Below, one piece after another: positions 19,843 through 48,942 of a DNA stretch of 64,000 nt. Location: positions 1,612,001-1,676,000 of the forward strand of contig PHSP01000003.1 of assembly GCA_002862125.1 (NCBI GenBank). The letters are read 5' to 3'. This DNA is from Methylobacter sp. KS41 (lineage in GTDB: Bacteria > Pseudomonadota > Gammaproteobacteria > Methylococcales > Methylomonadaceae). The notes beneath the pieces are model-generated. The model was not told the DNA's origin. It searched no databases and saw only the letters and a list, made by a program, of their open reading frames with translations. The position numbers were made by a program, and so were the translations under genes. How positions within the stretch are numbered: position 1 is the stretch's first letter; every line of letters starts with the position of its first letter.

Positions 19843-21687
19843 TTAATTATTGTAATGCACTGACACAAAAAAATTTCTACCCGCCATGTTGTAAGTATCA
19901 ACTGTTTGATAATTTTTAGCCAGCAGGTTATTTAACTTGGCGCTCAGCATCCAGTTTTTATTGAAATGATAGGCTGACCGTAAATCAACGGTTACATAGC
20001 CCGCAACTTTGATGGTATTTTGCGTATTATCAAAACGATCGCCTTGCGCCAGCACATTAGCGCCTGCGTCAATAGCACCGAAAGTTCTGGACAAATCGAA
20101 TGCCAGCATTTCCGAGGCTCGACGAGGCAATCTTGCATGGGTCTCCACATTCTTGGGATTCAACAGGTTCATGGTCAACTTGCCATTCCAGCCCATTAAT
20201 TGCGAAGCAAATTCTGTTTCAATACCTTCAATTTGCGCTTTGCCGATATTTTCCGCGCTAAAATTAAAAGTTAGCGGATTCATTACAGGGGTAATCAAAT
20301 TACCGATATTGGTATGGTAGGCTCGAACTTCCCATTGTCCCCAGTCGTGATTGCCGGCAATTCCCGCTTCATACGACTTGGATTCTTCCGGCTTCAGGTT
20401 GGGGTTGCCGTAATTAGGAAAATAAAGATCATTTAGCGATGGCGCTTTGAACGCATTGCCAAAGTTCGCTAACAGGCTGATGCCATAGTCCCAATTGTAC
20501 CGCCAGCCGGCATTTCCTGTCACATAATCGCCGAACGACTGATTATTGTCATAGCGTACTGAGGCATTTACAAAATGGTTATCCCATAACTTGCTATGCA
20601 GTTCAGCAAACACGCCCACATCGTAACGGGAGCTTTGATTGTATGTTTCCGAGCTATTCACTTCATCCAGGCGATAATCCGAGCCCAAAATTAGTTGATG
20701 CTCGCTGGATAATTTAATCTGATTCAGCCAGCTTGCATTCCAGCGGGTGCTGTTAAATTTACTTGAGAATGAACCATCCGGAGCAAACTGATCTTGATCA
20801 TCCTGGCTTTCCCCGAAGCGCAAAGTCGAGCGCCAGTTTTTGACAATATCCATGCTGGCTGACGTGCCGATAACCTGTTCTGTAAAATTAGTTTTATTTT
20901 GAAAATAACCATCGTAGTTTGTAGTTCCTTGAGTCCTCATAAAGAAGGCTTCGAGCTCTCCGTTACTGTCAAAATGGCGTCCAACCCTGGCATTGACCGC
21001 CGCATTGCTATAGCCATCATTGTCCGGCTGATTAACGCCGAAGGGCCTAGGCGTTGGCTGCCGGGCATTAAATCCGTGCGAGCCGAATCCTGAAGAGCCT
21101 AAAGTGTACCAGTTGCTTTTCCACTTGCCGCTAACGGTGCCGGCTGCTCGATAAGTAGCATAAGTTCCCCCTCCGGAATCCAGGGTTATGTCTGGCTTTT
21201 CAGTGGCGGCGCCTTTACGGGTAAAAATCTGGATAACGCCGCCCATCGCTTCCGAACCGTATAAGCTTGATTGAGGACCTTTGATAATTTCCACGCGCTC
21301 AACGGAATCCATCGGGATAAACTCAAAGGGAGTTGTTCCCAAGGTAGTAGAACCAACCTTAATGCCATCAATCAGCACTAAAACATTGTCGGAATTGGTT
21401 CCACGCATAAATAAGCTCGTGGTTTTACCGTAACCGCCTTGTTGAGTCATGTCGATTCCGCTCGTGCCTTTTAAAAGCTGAGGCAGAGTTTGAACCTGCA
21501 GGCGTTCAATATCCTTGCGGGTATAGACCGTGGTCGCAGCCGATAACTGATTTTTGGCAACTTCCGTCCTTGTCGCCGTAACCACTATATCGGGTAATTC
21601 CATTGAATTGTTAACAGGATTTTCCTGTGCTTGTGACTGGGCATTAATGCCCGCAAGCAATACAGAACTGAAGATAAATTTTTGCAT
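19843..21687 (-). CDS. btuB: TonB-dependent vitamin B12 receptor BtuB
   Basis: This 614-residue outer-membrane receptor has a signal peptide (KFIFSSVLLAGINAQSQAQ), a TonB box (PDIVVTATRTE) and a plug domain with the typical MRGTNSDNVLVLIDGIKV and VERVEIIKGPQSSLYGSEAMGG. A 22-strand barrel follows and ends in FFVSVHYNN; a terminal aromatic is usual, but here the chain ends in Asn. The length matches E. coli BtuB. A cobalamin riboswitch lies upstream, which makes cobalamin the likely cargo. It is probably transcribed with the BtuM-like gene, giving a route across both membranes. Confidence 0.93.
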   Translation of the reverse strand: MQKFIFSSVLLAGINAQSQAQENPVNNSMELPDIVVTATRTEVAKNQLSAATTVYTRKDIERLQVQTLPQLLKGTSGIDMTQQGGYGKTTSLFMRGTNSDNVLVLIDGIKVGSTTLGTTPFEFIPMDSVERVEIIKGPQSSLYGSEAMGGVIQIFTRKGAATEKPDITLDSGGGTYATYRAAGTVSGKWKSNWYTLGSSGFGSHGFNARQPTPRPFGVNQPDNDGYSNAAVNARVGRHFDSNGELEAFFMRTQGTTNYDGYFQNKTNFTEQVIGTSASMDIVKNWRSTLRFGESQDDQDQFAPDGSFSSKFNSTRWNASWLNQIKLSSEHQLILGSDYRLDEVNSSETYNQSSRYDVGVFAELHSKLWDNHFVNASVRYDNNQSFGDYVTGNAGWRYNWDYGISLLANFGNAFKAPSLNDLYFPNYGNPNLKPEESKSYEAGIAGNHDWGQWEVRAYHTNIGNLITPVMNPLTFNFSAENIGKAQIEGIETEFASQLMGWNGKLTMNLLNPKNVETHARLPRRASEMLAFDLSRTFGAIDAGANVLAQGDRFDNTQNTIKVAGYVTVDLRSAYHFNKNWMLSAKLNNLLAKNYQTVDTYNMAGRNFFVSVHYNN

Positions 21688-21809
21688 GATTGTCCTCTGC
21701 GCCGCCCGCGCATAGCGATTGAATAATTACAACGGAGGACTAAAGAAGATGAAAGACACGAAGGCGCACAATCACACCGCAAAACAGCCCTCCGCTGCAG
21801 CGAATTATA

Positions 21810-22001
21810 CTTTCGGGCCGGTCTCCGGGCTTATAAGTGGCGTAAACCTGAATCATCACCTTCCCATGTTCAATAACACAGTGGCGTATTGATGACTCTT
21901 TACTTATATACCGTTGCGGGGGCAGCGTCGGATTTGGCCTTAACCTTACCGACTTCCCGTTTAACCATCGGATTTGACAATCTTCTGGAACCTGAAAGCA
22001 G
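21810..22001 (-). promoter_or_regulatory. Cobalamin (AdoCbl) riboswitch
   Basis: Read on the minus strand, the leader holds the conserved cobalamin-riboswitch blocks in order: an AGGTTCC block near the start; ACGGGAAGTCGG; the core CTGCCCCCGCAACGG (plus-strand 21911-21925); GCCACTG with GGGAAGG after it; and the B12 box AAGCCCGGAGACCGGCC (plus-strand 21816-21832). It lies 120-310 bases before the btuB start. Binding of cobalamin is expected to mask the btuB translation start or end transcription, so uptake genes are off when B12 is plentiful. Confidence 0.93.
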
Positions 22002-22007
22002 GCCATA

Positions 22008-22036
22008 ATTATAGGGGGTAATCTTGATAAAGCAAA
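22008..22036 (-). promoter_or_regulatory. Probable promoter of the riboswitch-btuB-btuM unit
   Basis: On the minus strand a perfect TATAAT (plus positions 22008-22013) stands 16 bp downstream of a weak -35 TTGCTT. It would start transcription near 22001, directly before the riboswitch's first conserved block. From here to the hybrid kinase's stop at 22424 (about 390 bp) I see no gene. Confidence 0.5.
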
Positions 22037-22423
22037 TCGTGGCGCAACTGGCATGGAAGTCAGCTAGCTGGCGGAGTGCGCAGTGAGAAGGGAAAATGCA
22101 GGCGAAGGCGGGGGTGACCAAAGAAACTCTGAATAGATAACCAACACGGAAGCACGGTTATGGAGAGCCAATGCGGAATCTGAAAGAAGCCTTGGCCAAT
22201 GGATCACCTGAACGCAAGTGAATCTCCGCAAGGCGGCAGCAACGGGGTAAGAAGCCGGCAATAACCGAAGTCCAATATTCTCACTGTAACGCGTTGCCGT
22301 ATCGTTGGCAGGCGGATGGATAAAGCCAATAGACATCTTGTCATGTAGATTTTTTTGAAAACAAACCTTGTTCAACTTATTTCGCGCATGTTCCTTAGAG
22401 TTGGAATCGCAAAAAAGTTTGCC

Positions 22424-25400
22424 TCAAGGATTAGTCGCTTCCCTGAGCGTTTCCAATGCTGTTTCGTATTCAAATATGCTAATTTGGCGGATAAAATCAG
22501 AATAACGGCAACCTAACTTCATTCGAAGCAGATTATCGTATTTACGGGCCAAGAGGTTGGCGCGTGTGTTGTCTTCGGCAAGCAGGCTCTCAAGTTCTGT
22601 GAGAATCCGTTTTATGTCTTCAGGATTAATGCCGCTGCTGATGTCTTCGATAAGGACAGCTATCTCGGGCAGGTTTTTGATATTCCGGACGAGTTGCGTC
22701 AATTCAAGATCACACAAGCTGGCCAATTCCATGCATTCAGGCAGTGCAGCGCCTCGGCGCAGGGCGGTATCGAGTTTTGCCGCCAGGTCCGAAACGCAGC
22801 GCGCGCCGAGGGTGGCGGCGACGCCTTTTAGTTCGTGCGCCAGACATTGCGCCTCTTGAGTGTTTCCGTCAGCCAGCCGTTCAAGCACATGTTTCATGTC
22901 TTCTTTATGAAGGCCCGCGAACATGCGCAGTAGGCGCAGATATTTCTCAGCGTCGCCCAGCACGGCGGCGAGGCCTTGCGCGAACTCCAGTCCGGGTATG
23001 TCAGTCAATTGTGCCTTGATAGCATTAGCCGGGGGAGAACTGGGAGTTACTTCAGCCAAGTATTCGCTGGGCTGGATTTCCTCTTCCGGATGGCGACTTT
23101 GGCCCGGACCCGGCAACCAGCGGAGCAGCGCGGCATAGAGGTCCACTGGGTTCACTGGCTTGGCGACAAAGTCGTTCATGCCTGCGTCCAGGCACGCTTG
23201 CCTGTCTTCGATAAAGGCGTTGGCGGTCATGGCCAGGATCGGCAAGGCCGCGAAGCGGGGCTGGGCTCGAATTGCTCTGGTCGCCGTCAAGCCATCCATA
23301 ACCGGCATCTGAATATCCATCAGCACGAGTTCGTAGGCATGCTTGCGGATTTTTTCCAGGGCGATGCGGCCGTTTTCCGCCGTATCCACAGACAGACCGG
23401 CGCCATGCAGCAATTCCAGCGCTACCTCCCGGTTGATCGGATTATCTTCCGCCAGCAATAAAAGCGCGCCGGCATGGTTTCTTCTCAGGATGTTCTCGGC
23501 ATCCGCCGGTTTTACCATGGGTTTGTCAGTTATAACGCCATGGCCCCGCTGGAGCCGGACAGTAAACCAGAATGTGCTGCCTTGACCCAGGGCGCTTTGC
23601 ACGCCCGCCTCGCCATTCATCATGTTCGCCAGGTGCCGGGTAATTGCAAGTCCTAATCCGGTGCCGCCGTATTTGCGGGTGATTGAAGCATCAGCCTGGC
23701 TAAAGACCTCAAATAATACCGGCAGTTGCTCTTCCGCGATGCCAATACCTGAGTCCTGGACTTCGAAACGCACCAGCAAGCCCTCGCTGCTGTCTTCCAA
23801 TAGCTTCGCCCGCAGCCAGATCTTTCCTTGCTCGGAAAATTTGATAGCGTTACTGGCATAATTGAGTATGGCCTGAAGCAGACGGGTAGCATCCCCGCGC
23901 AGCCACAAAGGCACGTCACCGCTATCCACTTCGATGGTGAGGCCTTTGGCCCGGGCTTGATCGGCCACCAGGGAGCGAACGTGGTCCAGCACTGTCTCCA
24001 GAGCAAAGTCGGTGTATTCCAGTAACAGGCAGCCGGCCTCAATCTTCGACAGATCCAGGATGTCATTAATGATAGCCAGCAGATGCTGGGCGGAATTGTC
24101 GATCTTGTTCAGATATTCGTATTGTGCGGGTGTTGAAGTTGTTTTGCGCAAAAGATAGGTTAGCCCGATAATAGCATTCATCGGCGTGCGAATTTCGTGA
24201 CTCATATTGGCCAGGAAAGCGCTCTTGGCCCTGGTGGCCGCTTCGGCGCTTTCGGCGCGGCGCGCCAGTTCAGCCTCCATTTCCCGTTGCGGCTTGATGT
24301 CGCGGGCAAAACCGACCGTGCCTAGCACCGCGCCACCGGTATCGAAAATAGGCGCTTTGAAGATTTCATAAAGACTGTCCGGCTCACTTGGCCCCGCCGC
24401 CTCCACTATCTTTTGACGGCGCGTTGCTAGCACTTCCGCATCAGTGGCAAGTAAACGCTCGGCAGTCGCGCGCGGCCAGAGATCGAAGCCGGACTTGCCA
24501 ATTATTTCTTCCGGTTTTCTGTCAGTAGTCTCAGCGAATATCCGGTTGACAACCAAGAAACGCCCCTCTTTGTCCTTTAGCCAGGCCATAAACGGCAGGT
24601 TGTCGATTAGCGCTTGAAGGAAATGGCTCTGCCTGCGCAGCTCGCCGGTGCGCGTTTCCACCAGCTCTTCCAGATTATGGCGGTGCCGGTCCAGTTCCTC
24701 GCCCAGGCGTTTCTTTCCGGTGATATCCTCCTTCACGCCCACATAATGAGTGATGTTTCCATCCGGCTGGCGAAGGGGGGAAATAATGGCGAATTCCGCA
24801 TATTCCCTGCCGTCCTTGCGCTTATTAATAAACTCTCCTTTCCAGGTTTGACCCTGGGATATGTCATTCCAGAGATTCTGATAGGTTTCCCTGGGCGTTT
24901 TCCCGGATTGAAGAATGCTAGGGTTCCGGCCTATGACTTCATCACGGCTATAACCGGAGTTGTTCAGGAAAGCTTTATTCACGTATTCGATCTTGGCATC
25001 CAGGTTTGTGATGACGATACTTTCCGGACTCTGTTCGACGGCTTGGGCGAGTTTGCGTAACTGATCTTCGGTCTGCCTGCGTCCGGTAATGTCTTCGTAG
25101 ACGCCCAGTATGCCGATGATCAGATCATCCCGGTCACGAAGCGGTATCTTGGAAGTGCGTACCCAGATCCTGTCGCCTTCAAAGCGCGTAAGACTTTCTT
25201 CGAAATTGAGCTTGGGGATGCCCGATTCCATCACTGCCATATCATCTTCTTGATACAATCCGGCTTGATTTTTCCAGACCATATCAAAATCGGTCCTGCC
25301 GGTCAGTTCGTCCGGGGAGGAGCATCCGGCATCTTGGGCAAACAGAGTGTTGCAGCCCAGATAACGCGAATTGCGATCCTTCCAGAATACCCGGTCCGGC

Positions 25401-26347
25401 ACGTTTTCTATGACGGACCGGAGCAAATCCAACGATTCACGAATAGTAATTTCTGCCTGTTTCCGGTTGGTGATTTCGCGGTTAGCGCCATACCACCCGA
25501 GGGGTTCATGATGCTCGCCGTGGCCAGGCTTGCAACGATGGCTGATCCAGCGCACAGAGCCGTCCTTGAGGACGATGCGCAATTCCACTTCGTGTATGCC
25601 GGTATTAAGATTGTCTGCAAAGTGTTGCCGGTACTTAACGCGGTCATCCGGGTGGATAATGTTGTTCATTAATCCTTTATCGGCGGTGAATTCCTCGGGA
25701 CTATGACCGCTAATCATCTCGCAAGCCGGCGATACGTATTTGAAGCAATGGTCCAGTCCTAGCCAAAAGATCCAGTCGGAAGAGTGTTCAGCCAGCAGCC
25801 GGAATTTAGCTTCGGACTTCCGCAACGCCTCATGAGCCTCCTCGGCACGGATGCGGGCGGCGACGGCGTCTTCCATCAGGTTCAGCGCCGCCAGTCTGGC
25901 TTGGCGTTGCTCTTCAATGGCGATCGCCTGGTTTTTGAGCAAGGCGGCTTCAGCGGCTTGGCGTGCGCAGTGTTCGTTGGCTTCATTAACTGTGCGCCTT
26001 ATGGATGGCGCCAGCCGGGTCAGATTATCCTTGAGAATGAAGTCGCTGATACCCAGATGCAACAGTTCCGCCGCCACTTCCTCATTAATGCTGCCGGACA
26101 CCAGGATAACCGGCAAGTCAGGGCAATGCGTCTGGATGCGTCGAAGAGAAATGCGGAAATCCATGCCGGGCACGTTGTAATCGAACAGCAGCACATCCCA
26201 TTCGCTCCGCAAAGCGGCGTCCAGTTCCTCGTCGCTGGCGACACGCAGGCACCAGGCAGACAGTCCCTGCTGGTGGAGGTGGTGCTCCAGCAGCAGGTAA
26301 TCGGCGGTTACGTCTTCAATAATAAGAAGTTTCAGCGGGCTGTTCAT
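22424..26347 (-). CDS. Hybrid sensor histidine kinase: REC, four PAS, HisKA/HATPase, REC, Hpt
   Basis: This 1,307-residue cytoplasmic hybrid kinase has no membrane segments. Domains in order: receiver ([20 protein letters not shown]); a coiled coil; four PAS domains (starting at [33 protein letters not shown] and [13 protein letters not shown]); HisKA ([14 protein letters not shown]); HATPase ([25 protein letters not shown]); receiver ([31 protein letters not shown]); and Hpt with the phospho-His ([13 protein letters not shown]). A complete phosphorelay is on one chain. The ATG at 26347 gives [13 protein letters not shown]; the longer frame runs into the preceding receiver gene. It is the last gene after the ETR1-like kinase and the single receiver, and so may receive their signal. 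Confidence 0.9.
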
Positions 26348-26354
26348 CGCGGTT

Positions 26355-26795
26355 TCATTGCGCGGGCGGAGGCTCGTTAGTCGCCAGCCAGTAGATACCC
26401 AGGTGCGCAACAGTATGGGCAAATTCGGCAAAATCCACCGGTTTGCGCACGAAGCTGTTTGCGCCGTTTTCATAGCTCATCAGACGGTCGCGTTCCTCAT
26501 CCGAAGAAGTGAGGATAACCACCGGCAGCAGCTCAGTGCGGGCGTCGGCGCGAAGTCTCTTTAGCACTTCCAGGCCGGACAGCCGCGGCAGGCCGATATC
26601 GAGTATGACTACAGCAGGCAGGCCGGAGCCTGTACGGCTGGCGAATTCGCCTTCCCGGAACAGGTAGTCCAGCGCCTGCTGTCCATCCCTCGCCACGTCT
26701 ATCTGATTGCACAAGTTGGCTTTACGCAAGACGCGCAAGGTTAGCATTTCATCCTGAAGATTGTCTTCCACCAGCAATATGGTTTTGGCCTTCAT
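26355..26795 (-). CDS. Single-domain response regulator (Rcp1-like receiver)
   Basis: This 146-residue receiver domain has acidic residues in [11 protein letters not shown], the phospho-acceptor Asp in [14 protein letters not shown], the conserved Thr/Ser in [11 protein letters not shown] and the Lys in FVRKPVDF. The pattern with an extended [18 protein letters not shown] helix matches Rcp1-type receivers that partner phytochrome-like kinases. It overlaps the ETR1-like kinase gene by 4 bp, so the kinase and this receiver are probably a cognate pair. With no output domain, it would pass phosphate on, perhaps to the hybrid kinase that starts 7 bp further on, or act on a protein such as a motility target. 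Confidence 0.92.
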
Positions 26796-28408
26796 GGTTG
26801 AGTCTCCTTAATCGTTTGCTTGCCGGTCAAAGTAAAACAGAAAACCGCGCCCTTGTCCGGTTCACTCCGCGCTTCGATAATCCCGCCGTGCCGGCCTACG
26901 ATCCGCTGCACGGTGGCCAGACCGATGCCGATGCCGGGGAATTCATCCTGGCGGTGCAGGCGCTGGAAAGGCTGGAATAGCCGGTTGGCGTGGGCCATAT
27001 TAAAACCGGCGCCGTTATCGGCGACGCAAAAGCGGCGTTCGCCATCCTGTTCCTCGGAGTATACGCGAATAACCGGCGCTGTCGCGCGTATCGTGTATTT
27101 CCAGGCATTGCCCAGCAGGTTGCGCATGACCGCTTCGATCATGCGGGAATCGCCATGCGCTTGCAGCCCTGGTTCGACCCGCGATTCCACCTGCCTTCCG
27201 GGGTCGTTTCGCCTCAATTCGAACAGCAATTGCTCCGATAGGGCTGTTAGATCCACGGCGTCATGCCGTAATTCGCCGCGTGTGCTTCGCGAAAGAACCA
27301 ACAGGCCGTCGACCAACTCGTTCATTTTGCGGCTGGCCAGATCGATCTGCTCCAGGTATACCTTCGCTTCGTCCTGCAGCTGGCCGCCGTAATCCTCAAT
27401 CAAAGCCCGGCTGAAGCCGTTCATGGCCCGCAATGGCGCGCGCAGATCGTGCGAGACAGCATAGGCGAAGCTGTCTAGCTCATGGTTGGTGGCGGTGAGT
27501 TCAGCGGTGCGCTCGATAACCTTTTGCTCAAGGCTGGCATTAAGTTCCTGGATCTTTGCTTCGGCAAGCTTTTTATCGGTAATATCGCGAGCGATTTTTG
27601 AAGCGCCGACGATCAGGCCTTCTTTGTTCAGGATAGGAGAGATTGTAACGGAAACAGCAATCAGGCTGCCGTCCTTGCGGATGCGCTCCGTTTCGAAATG
27701 CTTGATTGATTGGCCGCGCCGGAGGGTATCGCAAATCTTGTCTTCATCTTTCCGGTACTCGGGAGGAATAAGCGTGTCGATAGTTTGGCCTACGATCTCC
27801 GTCGCGGTGTAACCGAAAATCTTTTCAGCTGCCCGGTTCCAGCTAGTAATGATGCCGTCCAGTGTTTCGCCGATGATCGCGTCCTCGGAATATTCGACGA
27901 TGGCCGCCAAGGACATCCTATCTTTCTGCCAGTCCGATTCGACCGCATCCTTTGCCAATTGCAGGGCTTTCTCCACTTGCTTGCGTTCGAATATTTCGTT
28001 TTGCAGCGCTTCATTTATGCCCCTCAACTGAGTTGGGCTAGGTAGTTTCAAGGCCTGAGGGATCATGGGCCAGAGCGCCACGGCGGTAATGACCGAAATA
28101 ATCGCGGTGACCGCCTTAATCAAGGCGTCAAGTTCGTACAGGGGCAGCCATAGTACGATTGCGCCCATCAAATGAGTTGCGCCGCAGGCCATGATAAAGG
28201 CCGCGAACATCCATAACAGCCATGGGTACGGAAAGTCCTCGCGCCTTCTTGCGAAATAAGCCAGCGCCATGGGCATTGAAAAATACGCAAGGAAAATCAA
28301 AGTGTCGCTGACAACGTAAGTCAAAACCAGCGGTTCTGACCAGCTGAGGCAATAACCGTGCGGCATATAGCCATTTACGCCAAAAAACCGGCCAAGTTCG
28401 TTGATCAT
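26792..28408 (-). CDS. Histidine kinase with an ethylene-receptor-like (ETR1) N-terminal domain
   Basis: This 538-residue membrane kinase starts with three hydrophobic segments (residues 28-115) that align with the ethylene-binding domain of plant ETR1. Compare VSDTLIFLAYFSMPMALAYF here with the ETR1 ISDFFIALAYFSIP block, and FAAFIMACGATHLM here with FGAFIVLCGATHL. With one constant offset of ten residues, the ETR1 positions Asp25, Tyr32, Pro36, Phe58, Ile62, Cys65 and His69 are Asp35, Tyr42, Pro46, Phe68, Ile72, Cys75 and His79. Cys65 and His69 bind the copper cofactor in ETR1. A PAS domain (about 165-290), HisKA (SHDLRAPLRAMNG) and HATPase (GIGIGLATVQRIVGRHGG) follow. It precedes a single receiver and a hybrid kinase. 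That it senses ethylene is an inference from the residues. Confidence 0.88.
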   Translation of the reverse strand: MINELGRFFGVNGYMPHGYCLSWSEPLVLTYVVSDTLIFLAYFSMPMALAYFARRREDFPYPWLLWMFAAFIMACGATHLMGAIVLWLPLYELDALIKAVTAIISVITAVALWPMIPQALKLPSPTQLRGINEALQNEIFERKQVEKALQLAKDAVESDWQKDRMSLAAIVEYSEDAIIGETLDGIITSWNRAAEKIFGYTATEIVGQTIDTLIPPEYRKDEDKICDTLRRGQSIKHFETERIRKDGSLIAVSVTISPILNKEGLIVGASKIARDITDKKLAEAKIQELNASLEQKVIERTAELTATNHELDSFAYAVSHDLRAPLRAMNGFSRALIEDYGGQLQDEAKVYLEQIDLASRKMNELVDGLLVLSRSTRGELRHDAVDLTALSEQLLFELRRNDPGRQVESRVEPGLQAHGDSRMIEAVMRNLLGNAWKYTIRATAPVIRVYSEEQDGERRFCVADNGAGFNMAHANRLFQPFQRLHRQDEFPGIGIGLATVQRIVGRHGGIIEARSEPDKGAVFCFTLTGKQTIKETQP

Positions 28409-28535: not shown

Positions 28536-30740
28536 TCATTGCGCATCGCCCTCCTGCGGTTGCTCTGGAGGGGTGTCGAGAAAGGACAGCGGGTAAGGCG
28601 GCTCCCGTCCGAGCTGCCGGGATAGCGCATTGATCTGCTGTTTGAGCGATATCATGTCCAGTTCACGCCCGACCGTGACGCGATTAAAGCGTTCGAGTTC
28701 GTCGTTCCGCTGCTGTAGTTCAACCAAGGCCGACCTGAGTTCAGTGATGTCTACGAAGGCGGTTAGTATATCGTCTCCGATTATAATCCCGGAAATCGTC
28801 ACCGTGCGCACCACGCCATCCTTGCAGGTAACGTGTGCTTCAATAGGCTCGGAAACGATATTGCGCTCCATCATGCGCTGCACGGCTGCGTTCCAGGCCT
28901 CTATTATCGAGAGCCGGTATTCCGTATCGGGATAAGCAAGCAGCCACCACTCGGCCAGCGTCGGCACATCCTCAAGGGTATAACCGAAGGTGCTGACGAA
29001 TTGTTTATTGGCGGCGGTTATCGCGGTTGTCTTGTTGATGATATTCAGTGGAATCGGCGACAGCATGAAAAACCACCGGAAGCGTTCTTCACTATTAAGC
29101 AGGTTACGTTCAACTTGCTTGAGCGCGGTAATGTCGTGCGAAATACCGAAAAGACCGATGACCTTGCCTTCGGCATCGTGTAGCGGCCCTTTGGTGGCGA
29201 GTAAAATCCGCTCACCTTCAGGCGACTTAAACACCTCCTCCGCGGTAATGGTTGCGTTCCGGGCGATCACCCGGCGGTTTAAAGCCATTAGCCTGTCGGC
29301 CTGTTCGGCCGGGAAAATCGCCCGGTCATCGCAGCCTAGCACCTCCTCGCTCTGTTTTCCGGTCAACACGCTAGCTGCGCGGTTGAATAAGGTGTATCGG
29401 CCTTCCAGATCCTTGGCAAAAATTACGTCATCCGAGCTATCGGCGATCGCGGCGAGCAGAGAAAGGGTTTTAAGCCGCTCATCCTGGGATTGTTGTACGG
29501 CTTTTGCCAAGGTCAGTTGTAGACTTTGCCGGGACAGGTATAAACCTCCCGAGAATATGAATAACGCCAACAAGCCGGCCAAGGCTATCCAGGCGGCTTC
29601 CGGCAAGGTCTTGGCATAAAGCTCGGACTTGTCCAGCTTGACTGCCAGGAACCAATCGGTACCGGGGATGGCGCGCGCTACGCCGATAGCGGGAATGCCA
29701 CGGTAATCCATGTCTTCTAGCGGACCATCCTGCGCAACCTTGCCGCGCAGCACTTGGGCGGCCAGCAGGTTTTTCTGAGCCAGCGGCAGGCGGAAACCGG
29801 CTGCACTATTTTTTCTATGAATGAGTTCATTGAGGTACAGCACCTGGTTGCCATCGCGCCTGAACAACAGCGTTTCGCCGCTGGCGCCGGGCGCCGGCCA
29901 GGTTTGTAAAATACTCAATAGCCAGTCCGACGAGTTAAGTTGCAGAATGACGAGAGGAACGGGACCGGGCGGCATGGCCGTCAGCGGTACGACAAAATCC
30001 AGATTCTGGTTGCCCGCCATGCCGCGATAGAAACCGGTGCGCTGCACTTTTCTCTCTGCCGTGGCCTGTTGTACCGCCGCTGTTAAGGGCGGCGCGATGG
30101 TCAGCTGCGATTTATCGCTGCCCCACAGCTTTTCGCCTTTCGGATTGAGCAGCATGACGTCAGCAAATCCTCGAATTTGGCGAATTTGTTCCAGCCTTGT
30201 TTGCAATCGTTCAGCGCTGTGCTTGTCGCCTGATTCTTGCCAGCTGCGGTACTGTCCGGCAATAAAATCGCTGGTTTTGATAAGGTCCGCATCGCCCTGT
30301 CTTTCTCCTAGCCAATCGGTAATCAGCCGGGTTTTCATGTCGGCGATAGCTTTTAACAGGGCTATTTCATAATTTTTATGCTCTTTAAATGCGTCGAAGA
30401 TACCCGCGCCTGTGAGTGCGACGATGACAACCGCCCCCAATGCGAAGTGCAGGGCCAGTTGCGGGGAATCTGCGGGAATGGATTTTGATGCTCCATCGAA
30501 GCTGTGCCAGGGGCCTAGCAGAATATACAGCAGCAACGAAGTTACGGTGACGAATAACAAGCCCTTGAGCATGCCGGCCAGGGCAATCAACGCCGGGTCA
30601 TTAATCAGCCGCGCCAAGGCCTCGTCTGATAGCAATATCCATAAGGAGGCAAAGACGGCATAGAAGAAGACGATCGACAGTCTCCTTTTCTGACGGGCTA
30701 GCCCTGGTATCTGTTGATCCGGCATGGTATCAGGCAACAT
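28536..30740 (-). CDS. Cache/PAS membrane sensor without a kinase domain
   Basis: This 734-residue protein has two N-terminal membrane segments and a third near residue 115. A periplasmic Cache-like region follows to about residue 375, then a further segment (WIALAGLLALFIFSGGLYL), and two PAS domains (IADSSDDVIFAKDLEGRYTLF; WFFMLSPIPLNIINK). It ends with a coiled-coil tail (ELQQRNDELERFNRVTVGRELDMI) and no HisKA, HATPase, GGDEF or other output domain. This tail is common in kinase-less PAS sensors. It may lend its input to a kinase encoded next to it. A 127-bp spacer separates it from the ETR1-like kinase gene, and about 300 bp without a supported gene lie upstream (30741-31039). Confidence 0.82.
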   Translation of the reverse strand: MLPDTMPDQQIPGLARQKRRLSIVFFYAVFASLWILLSDEALARLINDPALIALAGMLKGLLFVTVTSLLLYILLGPWHSFDGASKSIPADSPQLALHFALGAVVIVALTGAGIFDAFKEHKNYEIALLKAIADMKTRLITDWLGERQGDADLIKTSDFIAGQYRSWQESGDKHSAERLQTRLEQIRQIRGFADVMLLNPKGEKLWGSDKSQLTIAPPLTAAVQQATAERKVQRTGFYRGMAGNQNLDFVVPLTAMPPGPVPLVILQLNSSDWLLSILQTWPAPGASGETLLFRRDGNQVLYLNELIHRKNSAAGFRLPLAQKNLLAAQVLRGKVAQDGPLEDMDYRGIPAIGVARAIPGTDWFLAVKLDKSELYAKTLPEAAWIALAGLLALFIFSGGLYLSRQSLQLTLAKAVQQSQDERLKTLSLLAAIADSSDDVIFAKDLEGRYTLFNRAASVLTGKQSEEVLGCDDRAIFPAEQADRLMALNRRVIARNATITAEEVFKSPEGERILLATKGPLHDAEGKVIGLFGISHDITALKQVERNLLNSEERFRWFFMLSPIPLNIINKTTAITAANKQFVSTFGYTLEDVPTLAEWWLLAYPDTEYRLSIIEAWNAAVQRMMERNIVSEPIEAHVTCKDGVVRTVTISGIIIGDDILTAFVDITELRSALVELQQRNDELERFNRVTVGRELDMISLKQQINALSRQLGREPPYPLSFLDTPPEQPQEGDAQ

Positions 30741-31039: not shown

Positions 31040-32146
31040 TTATTCCAGGATGTGATCGTTATAAGAATCAGCGATGCCGCAAAAGGCCTTATAATTGGCG
31101 AGAAAGGCATCGGTTATGTCCGGATCGAAATGCTGGTTTCGTGCGCTTGCAATAATATCCCTGACTTCGGCATAAGATTTGGGTTGCTTGTAAACCCGGC
31201 GGGTAATCAGGGCGTCGAAAACATCGGCGAGAGCCATGATTCGTGCTGAAACCGGGATTGAGTCGCCACTGAGTCCATCGGGATAGCCTGTTCCGTCCCA
31301 TTTCTCATGATGCCAATGGGCTATTTCCTTGGCCAGAGAGAGAAATTCCACTGTTCCGGCCGCGTCCTTCTCGGCTAACTCGATGGCTTCACTGCCCAAT
31401 CGGGCGTGCGTCTTCATGATTTTCCATTCTTCCGGCGTGAGCTGGCCGGGTTTCAGAAGAATGGAATCGGGGATGCCCACCTTGCCAATATCATGCAGCG
31501 GGGCAGAGCGTGTCAGCAGCTTGCTATAGTGGTCATTCAGTGTTGGCGCGAAGCGGGGGTGCGTCCGCAGTTCCAGTGCGAGTTGGCGGACATAGCTCTG
31601 GGTGCGCAGAATGTGCTTGCCGGTTTCAGGGTCGCGCGTTTCTGCTAAATGGGCCAACGCGCGGATAGACACTTCCTGGATCAATTCATTTTCGGACATG
31701 CGCCTCGCGATCTCGTTTTCCAGATAGACATTCTGGTCTTTTAACCGGTCGCGGGCCTGTTTGATTTCCAGTTGAGTACGGACACGAGCCAGCACAATGG
31801 GGGGAACGATTGGTTTGCTAATGTAGTCCGCCGCGCCTGATTCCAGCCCCTGCAACTCCGCCTCCATATTGTTCATGGCGGTCACGAAAATGACCGGGAT
31901 GTCACGGGTGGCCGGGTCTGCTCGCAGCCGTCCGAAGACCTGATAACCGTCCATTTCCGGCATCATCACATCCAGCAGAATCAGGTCAGGCTGCGGCGTG
32001 GCGCCGGCGATTCGTAATGCTTTCAGGCCGGAAGTGGCGGCGCGCACCTGGTAGTCCGATTGCAGCAGCTCACTGAGAATGGAAAGGTTCTCGGGGGAAT
32101 CATCCACGATCAGGATTGTTTTTTGAGCTTCCTCTGGCATTCGCAC
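31040..32146 (-). CDS. Response regulator with an HD-GYP c-di-GMP phosphodiesterase domain
   Basis: This 368-residue protein has a receiver domain (ILIVDDSPENLSILSE; phospho-Asp in LILLDVMMPEMDGYQVF; Lys in YISKPIVPP), a linker helix and an HD-GYP domain. That domain shows APLHDIGKVGIPD, HARLGSEAIELAE, HHEKWDGTGYPDGL and RIMALADVFDAL, all intact. HD-GYP enzymes hydrolyse cyclic di-GMP, and the receiver probably turns this activity on or off. It is the first gene of the minus-strand signalling block; about 300 bp separate it from the next gene, so co-transcription is not certain. It links the block to motility or biofilm control. Confidence 0.92.
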   Translation of the reverse strand: MRMPEEAQKTILIVDDSPENLSILSELLQSDYQVRAATSGLKALRIAGATPQPDLILLDVMMPEMDGYQVFGRLRADPATRDIPVIFVTAMNNMEAELQGLESGAADYISKPIVPPIVLARVRTQLEIKQARDRLKDQNVYLENEIARRMSENELIQEVSIRALAHLAETRDPETGKHILRTQSYVRQLALELRTHPRFAPTLNDHYSKLLTRSAPLHDIGKVGIPDSILLKPGQLTPEEWKIMKTHARLGSEAIELAEKDAAGTVEFLSLAKEIAHWHHEKWDGTGYPDGLSGDSIPVSARIMALADVFDALITRRVYKQPKSYAEVRDIIASARNQHFDPDITDAFLANYKAFCGIADSYNDHILE

Positions 32147-32392: not shown

Positions 32393-35300
32393 CTACATGT
32401 TTTTTTCTTCAAACCAGCCGTATAACAGAGGCAAAACGACGAGGGTCAGGAAAGTTGAGGTAATCAATCCGCCAATGACCACAATAGCCAACGGTTTTTG
32501 CACTTCCGATCCCGGTCCGGTGGCAAATAAAAACGGCATCAGTCCGAGCAGCGCAACAGTGGCGGTCATCATCACCGGCCGGAAACGTTGTTCGCACCCT
32601 TGGCGAATGGCAAGGGCCTGACTTAAACCGCCGGCGCGCAAGCCGCGAATATACGAGACCAGCACCACGCCATTCAGCACCGCGATACCCCACAGGGCGA
32701 TGAACCCCACTGAAGCCGGTACTGACAGATACTCGCCGCTAACGTACAGGGAGATGATGCCGCCGATCGAGGCGAACGGCAGCACCAGTATAATCAATGC
32801 CGCAAAGCGTAAGGAATTAAACAGCATGAACAATAGAAAGAAAATCGCGGCAATGGTCACGGGAATGATCAATTTTAAGTGTCCCAAAGCCCGTTCCATG
32901 TTCTGGAACTGTCCCCCCCACTGTAAATAGTAACTTTCCGGCAGCTTCACCTTCTTATTGACTGCTTGCTGCAGTTCGGCGACAAAGCCTCCCAAATCGC
33001 GATCATGCACATTGATGCCGACCACAATCCGGCGCTTGCCCATTTCCCGGCTGATTTGCGCCGGACCGTCGTTAAGCGTGATTTTCGTGACATTGCCCAG
33101 CGGCACCCGCGCTCCATTCGGCGAAGTCAGCATCAGGTTGCTGATGGTGGTGATGCTATTGCGAAAATCTTCCGGCAAACGCACGGCCGCTGAAAAACGC
33201 CGTTCACCCTGGTAAATCTCGGTGGCAATCTTGCCGGCAATCGCGGTTTCAATGACCTCGTGAATATCAGCAGCATTCAGGCCATGGCGGGCGATAGCCT
33301 GACGATCAATGGTAATATTCAGGTATTGTTGACCGGTTAAACGTTCTACCCGGATATCCCTGGCGCCGGCGATGTTGCCGGCCACGGCGGCGATCTCGTC
33401 AGCAAGCAGTTTTAGTACCGCCAGATCGTCGCCGAACACTTTCACGGCGACATCGGAACGCACGCCGGTGACCATTTCGTCGACCCGGTCGGAAATCGGC
33501 TGCGCCATCACCACTTGCATGCCTGGCAGATTTTCGGTGAGCTTGTCGTTCATCTTTTCGGCGATATCGTCCTGGGTCCAGCCGGACGGCCATTCTTCTC
33601 GGGGTTTCAACGTAACGATAGGGGTGGACTCGTTCTGAGCCTGGGCATCAGCCGGACTTTCGCCACGGCCGACGCCGCTGACTACGGATTTGACGCCGGG
33701 AATATCCATCACCATTTTCATGGCCCGCATCTCGACATCGATGCTTTCCTCCAGGGAAATGTTCGGTACGCGGAGAATGCCGGGCACGATAGAGCCTTCC
33801 TTCATTTCCGGAATGAACGAAGTGCCCAGCAAGGGCAGCAAGGCCAAGGTGGCGGCAAAAATCGCCACCGCGCTGCCGGCTACTTTGACCCGGTTGGCCA
33901 TGGCCCAGTCCAGCGACAATAAATAATAACGTTTGATGAAAGCAATCAGCCGGGTATCGTGTTCGCCCTGATGACCTTGCAGCAAAAATGAACACAATAC
34001 CGGCGACAGCGTCAGCGATAACAACAGAGATACCAGCAGAGCAATCGCAATGGTATAGGCCAGAGGCGCAAACATTTTGCCTTCCATGCCTTGGAGGGTC
34101 ATCAGCGGCAGAAACACCAGGATGATGATGCCGACTCCGAACAGTACCGGAGTCGCAACTTCCTGTGCAGCGGCCATGACTACGCGCACCCGGCTGATGC
34201 GGCGGCCTTTGCGTTCGCTAAGCAGGCGAAAAGCGTTTTCAACTACCACTACCGAACCGTCGACCATGAGACCGATGGCAATCGCCAGACCGCCTAGCGA
34301 CATCAGGTTGGCGGAGATTCCCAGCCGGTTCATCGCGATAAACGTCACCAACGGCGTCACAACCAGAGTGCTAACCACTATCAAGCTCGAGCGGACATCG
34401 CCAAGAAAAAGGAACAGTACGATGATCACCAGCGCTATGCCTTCCAGCAATACTTTAGTAACGGTATGCAGCGCGGCATCAACCAAATCACTGCGATCAT
34501 AATAGGAAACGATTTTCAGGCCATCCGGCAACATGGCTTTGCCGTTGATTTCCGCTACGCGCGCCTTGATCCGGCTCACCACTTCTTTGGCGTTACCGCC
34601 GCGCAGCATCATGACGATGCCGCCCACCGCTTCAGTATAACCATTCTTAATCACAGCACCGGCGCGCACTTCGTGACCGGTTTTGACTTCGGCAAGATCA
34701 TGGATATGCACCGGCACGCTCTTTTCCTCTTTCAGCACGATATTGCCGATGTCTTCGGCATCGTTAATCAGGCCAACGCCCCGGATCAAATACTGTTCGG
34801 CATAATGCGGCAATACTCCGCCGCCGCTATTGGCGTTATTGCGAGTCACCGCATCGTATACTTCGGCCAGCGAAACATGGTAATGATGCAAACGGTCCGG
34901 ATCAACCAATACCTGGTATTGCTTAACATAACCGCCCTGGGAATTGATTTCGGCGACTCCCGGAATACCGCGCAATAACGGCCGGACGATCCAATCCTGG
35001 ACCTCGCGGCGCTGCTGCAATTCCTTCTGAGTCAATGGACGCTGACCATCATCGTCGCGATCCAGTGTATATTGGAAAACTTCACCGAGTCCTGTTGATA
35101 CCGGACCCAGCACGGGATTAACGTCTGCGGGCATTTGTTGCTTGACCTCGATCAAGCGTTCCATCACTAACTGCCGGGCGAAATATACGTCGGTTTTATC
35201 GGTAAAAATCAGAGTAATCAACGACAGGCCGTTTTTATTCAGCGAGCGCATTTCTTCCAGACCGGGCAAACCGGCCATGGCGATTTCCAAGGGTATAGTC

Positions 35301-35494
35301 ACCAAACGTTCGACTTCATCGGGGGGGCGCCCGGCGGCCTCGGTAGCAATTTGCACCTGGATATTGGTAACATCGGGAAAGGCATCAACCGGCAATTGTT
35401 GAACGGCAAGAAAACCCGACAGCGTGATCGCCACAGCCAGCGCCAAAACTAGAATACGCTGATTCAAAGCGCTTTCGATTAAGCGATTAATCAT
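32393..35494 (-). CDS. Heavy-metal efflux RND transporter, inner-membrane pump (CzcA/CusA family)
   Basis: This 1,033-residue pump has the 12-segment RND fold: an N-terminal segment, a large periplasmic porter region, TM2-6, a second porter region (LPLLGTSFIPEMKEGSIVPGI) and TM8-12. The fourth segment reads AIAIGLMVDGSVVVVENAF, with Asp and Glu as proton relay. It lacks the AIGAMVDAAIVMIEN pattern of copper/silver pumps such as CusA and the DFG pattern of CzcA, so I do not name the metal. The membrane fusion protein lies 3 bp upstream. With it, a tripartite pump from the periplasm or inner membrane to the outside is expected, but no CzcC-type outer-membrane channel is next to it. Confidence 0.9.
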   Translation of the reverse strand: MINRLIESALNQRILVLALAVAITLSGFLAVQQLPVDAFPDVTNIQVQIATEAAGRPPDEVERLVTIPLEIAMAGLPGLEEMRSLNKNGLSLITLIFTDKTDVYFARQLVMERLIEVKQQMPADVNPVLGPVSTGLGEVFQYTLDRDDDGQRPLTQKELQQRREVQDWIVRPLLRGIPGVAEINSQGGYVKQYQVLVDPDRLHHYHVSLAEVYDAVTRNNANSGGGVLPHYAEQYLIRGVGLINDAEDIGNIVLKEEKSVPVHIHDLAEVKTGHEVRAGAVIKNGYTEAVGGIVMMLRGGNAKEVVSRIKARVAEINGKAMLPDGLKIVSYYDRSDLVDAALHTVTKVLLEGIALVIIVLFLFLGDVRSSLIVVSTLVVTPLVTFIAMNRLGISANLMSLGGLAIAIGLMVDGSVVVVENAFRLLSERKGRRISRVRVVMAAAQEVATPVLFGVGIIILVFLPLMTLQGMEGKMFAPLAYTIAIALLVSLLLSLTLSPVLCSFLLQGHQGEHDTRLIAFIKRYYLLSLDWAMANRVKVAGSAVAIFAATLALLPLLGTSFIPEMKEGSIVPGILRVPNISLEESIDVEMRAMKMVMDIPGVKSVVSGVGRGESPADAQAQNESTPIVTLKPREEWPSGWTQDDIAEKMNDKLTENLPGMQVVMAQPISDRVDEMVTGVRSDVAVKVFGDDLAVLKLLADEIAAVAGNIAGARDIRVERLTGQQYLNITIDRQAIARHGLNAADIHEVIETAIAGKIATEIYQGERRFSAAVRLPEDFRNSITTISNLMLTSPNGARVPLGNVTKITLNDGPAQISREMGKRRIVVGINVHDRDLGGFVAELQQAVNKKVKLPESYYLQWGGQFQNMERALGHLKLIIPVTIAAIFFLLFMLFNSLRFAALIILVLPFASIGGIISLYVSGEYLSVPASVGFIALWGIAVLNGVVLVSYIRGLRAGGLSQALAIRQGCEQRFRPVMMTATVALLGLMPFLFATGPGSEVQKPLAIVVIGGLITSTFLTLVVLPLLYGWFEEKNM

Positions 35495-35497
35495 GCG

Positions 35498-36634
35498 TTA
35501 TTCCAGAGTGCTGCGTAAGCGTTCGTTATTGAGATGAAATGCACCCTTGACTACAATGGGCTCGCCAGCTTTTAACCCATCCACTATCGGCCGTTGCTGC
35601 CCTTCGTCACGACCCAAACGCACTTCCCGCAACTCGAAACGATTAGGCGCGGTTTGTACGAACACATAATCCTTATCATTTTCTCTCACCACCGCCTGGC
35701 CGGGCACCACCAGCGTTTGCGCGCCCGGCTTGCTGATTTTCAGGGTCGCCAGCATCTGCGGTTTAAACAGTTGCTGTGGGTTTTCCAGCGCCATGCGCAC
35801 CGTTACCGTCCGGGTATCAGGATTGACCAGATCGGCGACATAAATCAGTTTACCGCTGACCTCCTGGTCCGGCAAGGCCGGTACTTCGGCCTGCACCTGA
35901 TCGCCTTCCCTCGCCCAATAAGCTTGCTGCTCGGGTATTTCCGCCACCAGCCAAAGATGTGACAAATTGGCGACCGTATACAGGCTGTCGGTTGGCTGCA
36001 CCACCTGACCGATGGCAATGTTACGTTCGATCACTACGCCGTCGATGCTGCTGGTCACTGGCGAAAAAGAGTGAATGCTGCGTTCCTTATCCAGTCGTTT
36101 CAAGTCGGCTTCGCTCATACCCATTACCTGCAGCTGGTCGCTGGCTGCACGCAAATCGACTTCGGCTTCATTCAATACGCTCTGCCGTTCCTGCATCTGG
36201 GCAGTTGCAATCACTCCGCTTTGCAGCAAGCGCTTGGCTCTCTCAACAGTCAAGCGCTGCAGATTGACCTGCGAACGGGCTTTTAGATAGTCCGATTGTG
36301 CTTTGCCCAGCTCAATACTGCTCAAAAGCGCCAGACACTGGCCTTTTTTGACATTCTGACCAAGTATTGCGTCGATCCTGGTAACACGGCCGGTTACCGA
36401 TGCGCCGATGCGCGCGACCCCATGCTGATCCAGTTCTACCTGCGCCGATAAACGTAGGGTATCATGGACTTCGCTGGGCTTAACCTTGTCAATTTGCAGA
36501 AGCCTCATCAAGGCGGGGGTGGCTTCAATACTTTCCGGCATAACCGCAAAGGCTTCCGGCAAGTTAAAAAACCATAGAATCAGCAATTGGGATAACAGGA
36601 GTGAAGGGGCCGGATTAAGGCAAGTCATTTTCAT
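35498..36634 (-). CDS. RND efflux membrane fusion protein (CzcB/CusB family)
   Basis: This 378-residue periplasmic adaptor has a signal-like start, a lipoyl half-motif (GRVTRIDAILGQNVKKGQCLALL), a helical hairpin (about 100-190), the second half-motif (SSIDGVVIERNIAIGQVVQPTD) and beta-barrel and membrane-proximal domains. It links the RND pump to the outer-membrane channel. It lies between the pump (3 bp) and an unrecognised gene (3 bp), so three genes form one operon. I see no His- or Met-rich metal motif at the N-terminus, so the cargo is unclear. Confidence 0.9.
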   Translation of the reverse strand: MKMTCLNPAPSLLLSQLLILWFFNLPEAFAVMPESIEATPALMRLLQIDKVKPSEVHDTLRLSAQVELDQHGVARIGASVTGRVTRIDAILGQNVKKGQCLALLSSIELGKAQSDYLKARSQVNLQRLTVERAKRLLQSGVIATAQMQERQSVLNEAEVDLRAASDQLQVMGMSEADLKRLDKERSIHSFSPVTSSIDGVVIERNIAIGQVVQPTDSLYTVANLSHLWLVAEIPEQQAYWAREGDQVQAEVPALPDQEVSGKLIYVADLVNPDTRTVTVRMALENPQQLFKPQMLATLKISKPGAQTLVVPGQAVVRENDKDYVFVQTAPNRFELREVRLGRDEGQQRPIVDGLKAGEPIVVKGAFHLNNERLRSTLE

Positions 36635-38634: not shown

Positions 38635-40662
38635 ATGAAAATGAAATTAGGTAGATGCATGTTATGCGGGCTGGCATTGGTCAATGCTGCAAAGAACATT
38701 AATGCTGGAGAGCTTGCCGATCCCCCTGTTTTTGCCAGCAATAGAGACGACAAAACACTCGATTTGCTTATGATTGCCAAACCGGCAGATATTGACGCAT
38801 TGCCTGGAGTTACGGGGTGGGTCTATGAAATTTGCGAACGCAAGTACAGTGTGGAAAACACCTGCCCACCAGACAAGTCAAATCCAAATCCTTATGGCGG
38901 AGCGCGTTTACAAGCAAACCCCGGCGATACATTGAAAATGCATTTCATCAACGAACTGCCGATGGTTTTGGATTCATCGCATAGTGAAGAGCCCGGTGAG
39001 GAATTTTTGGCTCAAAATCCAACCAACATCCATACACACGGCATGTTGGTAGCGCCTAGTTTACCTTCACATACTGCGATAAATCCTCTGTTCGGCGACA
39101 GCGTTTTTGTTCTTACTTTTAATTCGGCGAACGGCATACCTGATATAATGCCAACCTCGCATATACATGGGGATGTGCGTACCGATACTACTGACTATCA
39201 AATTAAGATACCCGATAGTCACCCTTCGGGTTTGTACTGGTTTCATCCGCACGCGCACGGTATTTCATTGAATCAGGTTACTGCCGGCCTTTCGGGTATC
39301 ATCACCGTTGGCTCGGTTAACGACTATCTTCGCGGAATGCCGAGCAATATCGCCACTCGCCATTTAATTCTCAAGGATATTCAGATTAATGGCGATCAAA
39401 GCGTGAACGATGAAGAAGATCCGGACTTCTGCACTTCTCCATCGGCTGTTGCCGGTATATGCAATGGTGATAATGGCGGCAAATGGTATTTCAGCGTGAA
39501 TGGTCAATTAAATCCGACAATTACGGTCAACTCGGCTGGACAAATATGGCGAATCACCAACGCTTCCGGCAGCGCGACCTACGAACTGCAATTGACAAAA
39601 AGTGTTAATGGTTCGCCCGCATCTACAACGGGTATGGCGATGCAGGTATTATCAATAGACGGCATTAGCGTGACGCCAGCTGCCGGGACATCCGAGGGCG
39701 GTTTCAAGAAAATCGGCGGAGCAAAGTTCCGCCATATTGCTTGTCCGGGTATAACCTCTAAAAATCCATCGGCTGTCTGTGCAACTAATCTGCATATGAT
39801 GCCTGCTTCCAGGGCCGAAGTCTGGGTGGTGAATCGCGATGCGCAGGGCAATATGATCAAAGCAGACGGCAGCCAGGCTATTCTGCAAACGATTGGTTAT
39901 TCTACAGGTCAAGATGCTGATAATTGGCCGGCAATCAAATTGGCGCAGGTTAAGTTTGCCGGTAATTCCGCTTTGCCTAACAGACCGGTGCTTGATGTCT
40001 TTGATGGAAAGCATGACGCTACGGGTCTGAAGTTCAACGCGATAGCAAAAGAGCTTGCCGAAGCCAATCAGGCGGTTGAGCCAAGCTCAGTCTGTAAATC
40101 TTTGCCAGCTGGTTGGAAGCGCCGAATTTTCTTCGGCTATCCGCAGAGCAGCAATTTCGGAATAGGTTTTGAACTTGTTAATCAACATGGAGTTACAGTA
40201 CCGGGCAGTTTCCAGGATATCTCGGCATTTCCAAATGCAGCAAAGACCATCTGCCTGCCTTTGGGAGCAGGCAATACACCCGTGTACGAACATTGGGAAG
40301 TAATCAATCTAACCGCGGAGGATCATAATTTCCACATACATCAGACCAAGTTCCGGGTTTTAACGCGTGGGGAAATAACGGGTGCGGACACAGGCCAATC
40401 TGCCGCAGGCATACTACAGGATAGTGTGCCAGTGCTGAGCGGTGATGGGGGTTGTGATGGGACAGTCGCCAGTTGGAGAAGTGGCGAGTGTAATACTTCG
40501 CCCATCGATGTGGAAATCCCCTTTGCCATTGCGGGTGACTTTGTCTACCACTGCCATATTCTGGAGCATGAAGATGGTGGCATGATGGCAACCATTCATG
40601 TTGCCGGCTCAGGAACAAGCTTGGACCGGAACAAATACAGCAATATCGGTCATCATCATTAA
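38635..40662 (+). CDS. Multicopper oxidase
   Basis: This 675-residue secreted enzyme keeps all four copper-binding motifs: NIHTHGM, YWFHPHAHG, HNFHIHQTKF and FVYHCHILEHEDGGMM. The last supplies the type 1 Cys and His ligands and a Met axial ligand. It therefore should oxidise a substrate and reduce O2 to water at a trinuclear centre. A signal peptide of about 24 residues lies at the N-terminus. It lacks the Met-rich region of CueO. Its place next to a metal RND pump and an outer-membrane protein suggests a role in copper or manganese oxidation. Other substrates are possible. A strong inverted repeat follows the stop. Confidence 0.9.
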   Translation: MKMKLGRCMLCGLALVNAAKNINAGELADPPVFASNRDDKTLDLLMIAKPADIDALPGVTGWVYEICERKYSVENTCPPDKSNPNPYGGARLQANPGDTLKMHFINELPMVLDSSHSEEPGEEFLAQNPTNIHTHGMLVAPSLPSHTAINPLFGDSVFVLTFNSANGIPDIMPTSHIHGDVRTDTTDYQIKIPDSHPSGLYWFHPHAHGISLNQVTAGLSGIITVGSVNDYLRGMPSNIATRHLILKDIQINGDQSVNDEEDPDFCTSPSAVAGICNGDNGGKWYFSVNGQLNPTITVNSAGQIWRITNASGSATYELQLTKSVNGSPASTTGMAMQVLSIDGISVTPAAGTSEGGFKKIGGAKFRHIACPGITSKNPSAVCATNLHMMPASRAEVWVVNRDAQGNMIKADGSQAILQTIGYSTGQDADNWPAIKLAQVKFAGNSALPNRPVLDVFDGKHDATGLKFNAIAKELAEANQAVEPSSVCKSLPAGWKRRIFFGYPQSSNFGIGFELVNQHGVTVPGSFQDISAFPNAAKTICLPLGAGNTPVYEHWEVINLTAEDHNFHIHQTKFRVLTRGEITGADTGQSAAGILQDSVPVLSGDGGCDGTVASWRSGECNTSPIDVEIPFAIAGDFVYHCHILEHEDGGMMATIHVAGSGTSLDRNKYSNIGHHH

Positions 40663-48202: not shown

Positions 48203-48333
48203 GCCGGAAGCAAAGCCATTTTCCGTCGAAATCAGCCTATTTTCAGTGCAGAATACTGGTTCGATGAAACAGCGTTCGATTTACTGTTCTGTGATGAGTA
48301 TAATAAACGATTATCAGGCTCCGAGAACTATCT

Positions 48334-48926: not shown

Positions 48927-48942
48927 AGCCGGGACTTGTCCT

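Follow-up and report, generated by a model that had tools for sequence, protein, structure and literature searches.

Does an aerobic methanotroph carry a receptor for ethylene, and what would such a receptor be used for? The question is raised by a gene of Methylobacter sp. KS41 lying in the window analysed here, a stretch of 64,000 nucleotides (assembly GCA_002862125.1, contig PHSP01000003.1), which an initial annotation had described as a bacterial ethylene-receptor-like kinase. According to the available part of PMC11507031, a few ppm of ethylene inhibit methane oxidation in soils, methane monooxygenase makes epoxyethane from ethylene, and ethylene is harmful to methanotrophs.

The gene occupies 28408..26792 on the minus strand and encodes a 538-aa histidine kinase (P0001) composed of an ethylene-binding-type domain (EBD), a PAS domain and the kinase part; the coordinates first given were exact, and the strand is added here. 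Pfam places ETR1_N (PF25487) at residues 27–122 (28043..28330) with 126.1 bits and an E-value of 6.8e-37 against a cut-off of 27, covering profile positions 2–97 of 97, and the genome search gave the same stretch. The PAS domain is found at residues 168–278 (27575..27907), and HisKA (312–377) and HATPase_c (419–527) together span 26828..27475. All four kinase boxes (H, N, G1 and G2) are complete, being SHDLRAP (319), NLLGNAWK (430), DNGAG (464) and GIGIGL (492). The structure model of the EBD, with a moderate pLDDT of 70.6, has three helices (25–55, 62–87 and 92–119), predicted to lie in the membrane, and a search of this model against the PDB returned no solved structure at E <= 0.001. The model of the full-length kinase is poor (pLDDT 63.9, pTM 0.35).

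The domain had also been said to align with plant ETR1 without gaps, at one constant offset and with every key residue kept. We used ETR1 numbering and positions counted on the AtETR1 sequence, with which the BLAST alignment agrees. The single offset holds for the seven residues named, which are all present at +10 (D35, Y42, P46, F68, I72, C75 and H79), the copper ligands Cys65 and His69 of ETR1 corresponding to C75 and H79. It does not hold beyond them: there is a gap of three residues in the loop between helices 2 and 3, and helix 3 is aligned at +7, with K98 and S105 at the positions of ETR1 K91 and S98. Nor is every key residue kept, for ETR1 Ile35, listed in the available part of PMC6586836 among the residues essential for ethylene binding, is Met45 in the KS41 kinase, so that affinity or ligand could differ.

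Conservation of the site was analysed among 169 distinct domains, namely 125 of a gamma group (the loci of families f1 and f2 of the host order, the window's own included, and two Methylobacter MAGs; some of these genomes have no AMO match), 10 from alphaproteobacterial pMMO carriers, 33 others and plant ETR1. The residue table lists the locus identical to the window gene as L001. Both copper ligands, Cys and His, are retained by 123/125 gamma, 10/10 alpha and 30/33 other domains, and the full set of seven residues by 95/125, 9/10 and 23/33, respectively; these counts are upper estimates because the fetched EBDs are mostly high-scoring matches. At the position of ETR1 Ile35, Ile is present in 116 of the 125 gamma-group EBDs, and Met in all 12 members of the clade that contains the KS41 kinase in a quick tree (support 93, below the 95 mark). 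Eight members of this clade come from methanotroph families, and the remaining four are MAGs titled Rhodocyclaceae (two), Sterolibacterium and Proteobacteria. The residues at the positions of ETR1 D25 and K91 form the pairs D/K (150 domains), N/D (6), D/R (4), E/K (3), N/E (2) and four pairs seen once each. Their covariation has a p-value of 3e-11 when descent is ignored, and the domains that pair Asn with Asp or Glu fall into two or more clades of the quick tree. Judging from these sequences, the two positions seem to change together in nature, which fits the described Asp-Lys pair: the available part of a 2026 review (PMC13012798) names a conserved Lys as the partner of the Asp and reports an about 100-fold lower ethylene affinity when Asp is changed to Asn.

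In the quick tree of the 169 domains, 27 of 166 inner branches are well supported. The gamma-methanotroph label changes 15 times on this tree, at least four of the changes being forced by well-supported branches, and the domain was therefore probably gained several times. Moreover, the domain of one alpha-methanotroph (L249) is sister to that of an f2 genome of the host order (L050) with support 100. The two frames are 67% identical over 166 residues, and both have Ser at the position of ETR1 Pro36. This sisterhood and identity suggest that the domain was transferred between methanotrophs of different classes.

Which characterized receptors does the kinase resemble? We searched 72,556 plasmid records with EBD residues 1–142 as query (E <= 1e-5) and obtained 19 matched records. 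Among them is Azospirillum brasilense Sp7, whose EBD is 50% identical over residues 8–139. In the Sp7 locus (L158, unannotated in its record), an EBD-PAS-kinase frame of 525 aa has an RF3-like frame upstream of it, and its end overlaps with a frame for a receiver; because the length, the RF3-like gene and the overlapping receiver match the published locus, we take the Sp7 gene to be AzoEtr1. In the available part of PMC11819568, AzoEtr1 is reported to bind ethylene in yeast and in cells. The KS41 gene shares with AzoEtr1/AzoRR-Etr1 the EBD-PAS-kinase order and the overlapping gene for a stand-alone receiver, and on this relatedness it is best filed in the bacterial ethylene-receptor family, from which its binding of ethylene may be presumed. 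However, the whole proteins are only 29% identical, the kinase half has MAHEMSQP in AzoEtr1 and SHDLRAP in KS41, and AzoEtr1 has Ile at ETR1 position 35 where the KS41 kinase has Met. No match to an HD-GYP, membrane-PAS or hybrid-kinase gene was obtained in the 12 kb surrounding AzoEtr1, and its host is not known as a methanotroph. The AzoEtr1 receiver has no match to the KS41 receiver at E 1e-8; given this and the different kinase type, the outputs of the two kinases may differ.

SynEtr1 of Synechocystis PCC 6803 is likewise a bacterial ethylene receptor with a working kinase and a response regulator (PMC11819568, in the part available); compared by description alone, it differs in being also a light sensor and in acting via a small RNA. 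Plant ETR1 has the same Pfam domain, the seven named residues and the equivalents of K91 and S98, and the KS41 EBD is 39% identical to it over 106 columns. In addition to Met for Ile35, KS41 differs from ETR1 in a helix 2–3 loop shorter by three residues, in PAS in place of GAF and in a separate receiver. Family membership, the copper ligands, the counterpart of Lys91 and the AzoEtr1-like architecture strongly support the description of the gene as an ethylene-receptor-like kinase.

The kinase gene belongs to a cassette of five genes, all on the minus strand, in the order response regulator with HD-GYP, membrane protein with PAS domains, EBD kinase, receiver and hybrid kinase. The single receiver and the hybrid kinase downstream of the EBD kinase, both named in the initial annotation, were confirmed by Pfam, and the HD-GYP gene at the head had been absent from it. 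The gene for the stand-alone receiver (26355..26795), a protein of 146 aa with its phospho-acceptor motif at D66, shares 4 bases with the kinase gene, from which we infer that the receiver is the partner of the EBD kinase. The hybrid kinase has the order REC-PAS repeats-HisKA-HATPase-REC-Hpt in a frame of 22424..26473, for which Met at 26347 is a more probable start than that of the frame. In the membrane protein (28536..30740), Pfam detected PAS domains and, below the cut-off, a match to Cache, but no output domain. The response regulator (31040..32146) contains HD-GYP (PF13487) with intact motifs, HDIGK (218) and HHEKWDGTGYP (279). A scan for promoters and terminators in the cassette did not outperform shuffled sequences (9 vs 7.8; 9 vs 13.4).

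The full order is also present at L164, a locus of genus g12, and the same order without a separate receiver being detected was found in three genomes of genus g11 (L167, L168 and L169). In these four loci, the cassette is headed by response regulator HD-GYP genes 73–75% identical to that of KS41, hybrid kinases 43–47% identical take the same place, and a neighbour is related to the membrane-PAS protein, the end of one such protein being found in L260 as well. In L051, L125, L052 and L053, the kinase and the receiver alone were recognised; the receivers beside the EBD kinase in these loci and in L164 are 64–79% identical to the KS41 receiver.

The surroundings of the cassette contain several other features. 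It is adjoined by genes for heavy-metal efflux of the CusA/CzcA type and by one for a multicopper oxidase (32393–36634 on the minus strand and 38635–40662 on the plus strand), and on the far side of these metal genes are transposase and resolvase-type recombinase genes (46504–49335, plus strand). On the other side, a cobalamin riboswitch (21799–22010, minus strand, 105.7 bits) lies directly upstream of a BtuB-like TonB receptor (19843–21687), and a group II intron core is weakly matched at 22167–22333 (plus strand, 34.7 bits vs gathering 32).

Regarding the output, motif and profile probes divide the 125 gamma-group EBD frames into 58 with a kinase, 41 with GGDEF or GGDEF and EAL, and 26 with neither, many of the last being incomplete at the end of the fetched stretch. 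By Pfam, GGDEF and EAL are both present in five frames, namely four of those that the probes had labelled so and the third EBD protein of KS41, whose frame had been incomplete in the probed set. Ethylene decreases cyclic-di-GMP (c-di-GMP) in A. brasilense. Since the cassette includes an HD-GYP response regulator, related EBDs are joined to GGDEF/EAL and A. brasilense shows this ethylene effect, we predict c-di-GMP as the likeliest output of the KS41 cassette, at about even odds.

The KS41 genome (4.74 Mb, 4 contigs; G000) contains two AMO/PmoA-family genes, and the closest named protein relatives of the EBD kinase are in two Methylobacter MAGs (69 and 70%), in a search that may omit records very close to the window's own. 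By its genes, therefore, the host is a gammaproteobacterial methanotroph near Methylobacter, in line with the methanotroph host that had been supposed. An AMO/PmoA-family gene is present in 167 of the 201 genomes and in all 29 genera of the host family. The KS41 genome encodes three EBD proteins, two of them absent from the initial annotation. The second, of 1040 aa, is an EBD-PAS-kinase in which the seven residues are all present, and an Ile-bearing EBD paralogue is located at G000:C3:334159. The third (L003), with 1282 aa and the order EBD-PAS-GAF-GGDEF-EAL, has a degenerate site, in which Cys is replaced by Ser, Asp by Asn, Tyr by Phe, Pro by Ser, Ile62 by Phe and Lys by Gly. Its gene (L162:8687–12532; G000:C4, about 77.7 kb) lies directly downstream of an RND efflux gene.

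We further analysed the distribution of the domain among genomes, with a PF25487 match above the cut-off taken as presence. It was found in 116 of 201 genomes of the host family and in 12 of 369 of a class sample, three of which (G000, G010 and G336) belong to the host order. Outside the host order, it thus occurs in 9 of at most 365 class genomes, and taking 365, Fisher's test gives p 2e-53; like all the other tests of distribution given below, it is uncorrected for phylogeny. The host family has more kinases (median HisKA matches 26, vs 15.5 in the class sample), and within it the frequency of the domain increases with kinase number. In four strata of HisKA number, the family and class counts are 3/9 vs 0/47, 7/27 vs 1/35, 16/30 vs 2/28 and 39/45 vs 1/18, or 65/111 vs 4/128 when pooled, with a Mantel-Haenszel odds ratio of 27; high HisKA counts are lower bounds here (at least about 43–49), and G021 and G047 were taken as below the PF25487 cut-off from their E-values. 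The excess is present in all four strata, which rules out that it comes merely from the many kinases of the host family.

Methanotrophy and the domain are also associated in a family of Alphaproteobacteria, some of whose members carry pMMO. The domain is present in 27 of its 149 genomes, that is, in 7/11 AMO/PmoA carriers vs 20/138 others (p 6e-4); eight of the 10 domains fetched from alpha-methanotrophs group in a single clade, so these occurrences are not independent events. In a Nitrosomonadaceae-like AMO family (a label taken from three equal-scoring AMO copies), 5/81 genomes have the domain, not different from the class (p 0.15). Within the host order, the domain is found in 42/101 genomes, all in two families (22 in f1 and 20 in f2), and the other families have no EBD, yet 24 of their genomes have AMO-family genes. 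The latter two results rule out that any carrier of ammonia or methane monooxygenase has the domain. Together with the 4/11 alphaproteobacterial pMMO carriers that lack it, they indicate that co-oxidation of ethylene alone is no predictor of the receptor.

In this gammaproteobacterial methanotroph, the gene probably encodes an ethylene receptor of the same copper-dependent type as AzoEtr1 and SynEtr1. From the domains, residues, gene order, conservation and the methanotrophy of the host, a working scheme can be proposed. The three membrane helices would hold Cu(I) via Cys75 and His79, and the copper would bind ethylene. The signal would reach the kinase by way of the PAS domain and alter phosphorylation of the stand-alone receiver, and the kinase may further act on the hybrid kinase and the HD-GYP response regulator, changing c-di-GMP. 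Ethylene would be expected to inhibit the kinase, by analogy with the reported or predicted behaviour of ETR1, SynEtr1 and AzoEtr1. The response may be altered attachment or motility. The likely use would be the detection either of ethylene, which methane monooxygenase converts to toxic epoxyethane, or of roots and waterlogged soil.

Other readings of the domain should be weighed against this one. The clade with Met45 could have moved to another small ligand (alkene, CO or acetylene) or to another affinity, Met being a possible extra copper ligand. The fixation of Met in the clade, set against the prevailing Ile of the gamma group, gives this some ground, but the remaining named site residues are unchanged in the KS41 kinase and Met45 reaches the copper in no structure, and we regard such a shift as unlikely. 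The domain could instead sense copper itself through Cys-His occupancy and tie the copper supply of pMMO to behaviour, ethylene being incidental. Copper ligands that are almost always kept, and the location of the cassette beside an operon for metal efflux and a multicopper oxidase gene, are what this would lead one to expect. However, AzoEtr1 and SynEtr1 are ethylene-responsive (PMC11819568, in the part available), the non-ligand site residues Y32, P36, I62 and K91 are mostly kept too, and the efflux genes are unmatched around L164, L167, L168 and L169 (about 0.9–2.6 kb beyond the HD-GYP gene), which makes copper sensing decidedly improbable.

The three helices might also be a mere membrane anchor and dimer part, with PAS as the true sensor. 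In fact, the third EBD protein of KS41 has lost Cys, Asp, Tyr and Lys, and the fold can thus persist without the site. Anchoring alone would not require an intact site, and since the site is intact in the KS41 kinase and largely so in the sample (all seven residues in 95/125; Cys and His in 123/125), there is very little to recommend this reading. Finally, three helices make a simple fold, and similarity by chance or through a general three-helix arrangement, which the initial annotation had named as grounds for refutation, was considered. With a Pfam score of 126 bits, far beyond chance, no occurrence in 14 control genomes and no PDB match at E <= 0.001, it is ruled out for practical purposes.

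The receptor family itself is already known: the available part of a 2020 review (PMC7700396) states that many proteobacterial proteins carry an EBD with varied outputs. The interesting part is the link with methanotrophy, for which we found no report in the literature searched, although an earlier listing in supplements or subscription papers is quite possible. In the parts available, PMC11507031, on ethylene in methanotrophs, does not mention "receptor", PMC6956133, an inventory of methanotroph sensors, does not mention "ethylene", and PMC12172448 and PMC6944256 contain nothing on methanotroph ethylene receptors.

Aerobic methanotrophs may in general perceive ethylene, having acquired this ability repeatedly. 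They would do so with receptors of the plant type, in many cases more than one per genome and in many cases connected directly to c-di-GMP enzymes, and would thereby sense both a metabolic poison and a marker of roots and flooded soil; we put this forward tentatively, with somewhat more doubt than confidence. The domains compiled here offer natural variants of the ethylene site for binding studies, including Asp-Lys to Asn-Asp or Asn-Glu, Ile35 to Met and a paralogue without the Cys. Ethylene sensing by methanotrophs is directly testable in cultivable, mutable strains. If methanotrophs do sense ethylene, the ethylene of wetlands and rice roots would be a signal shaping the methane filter.
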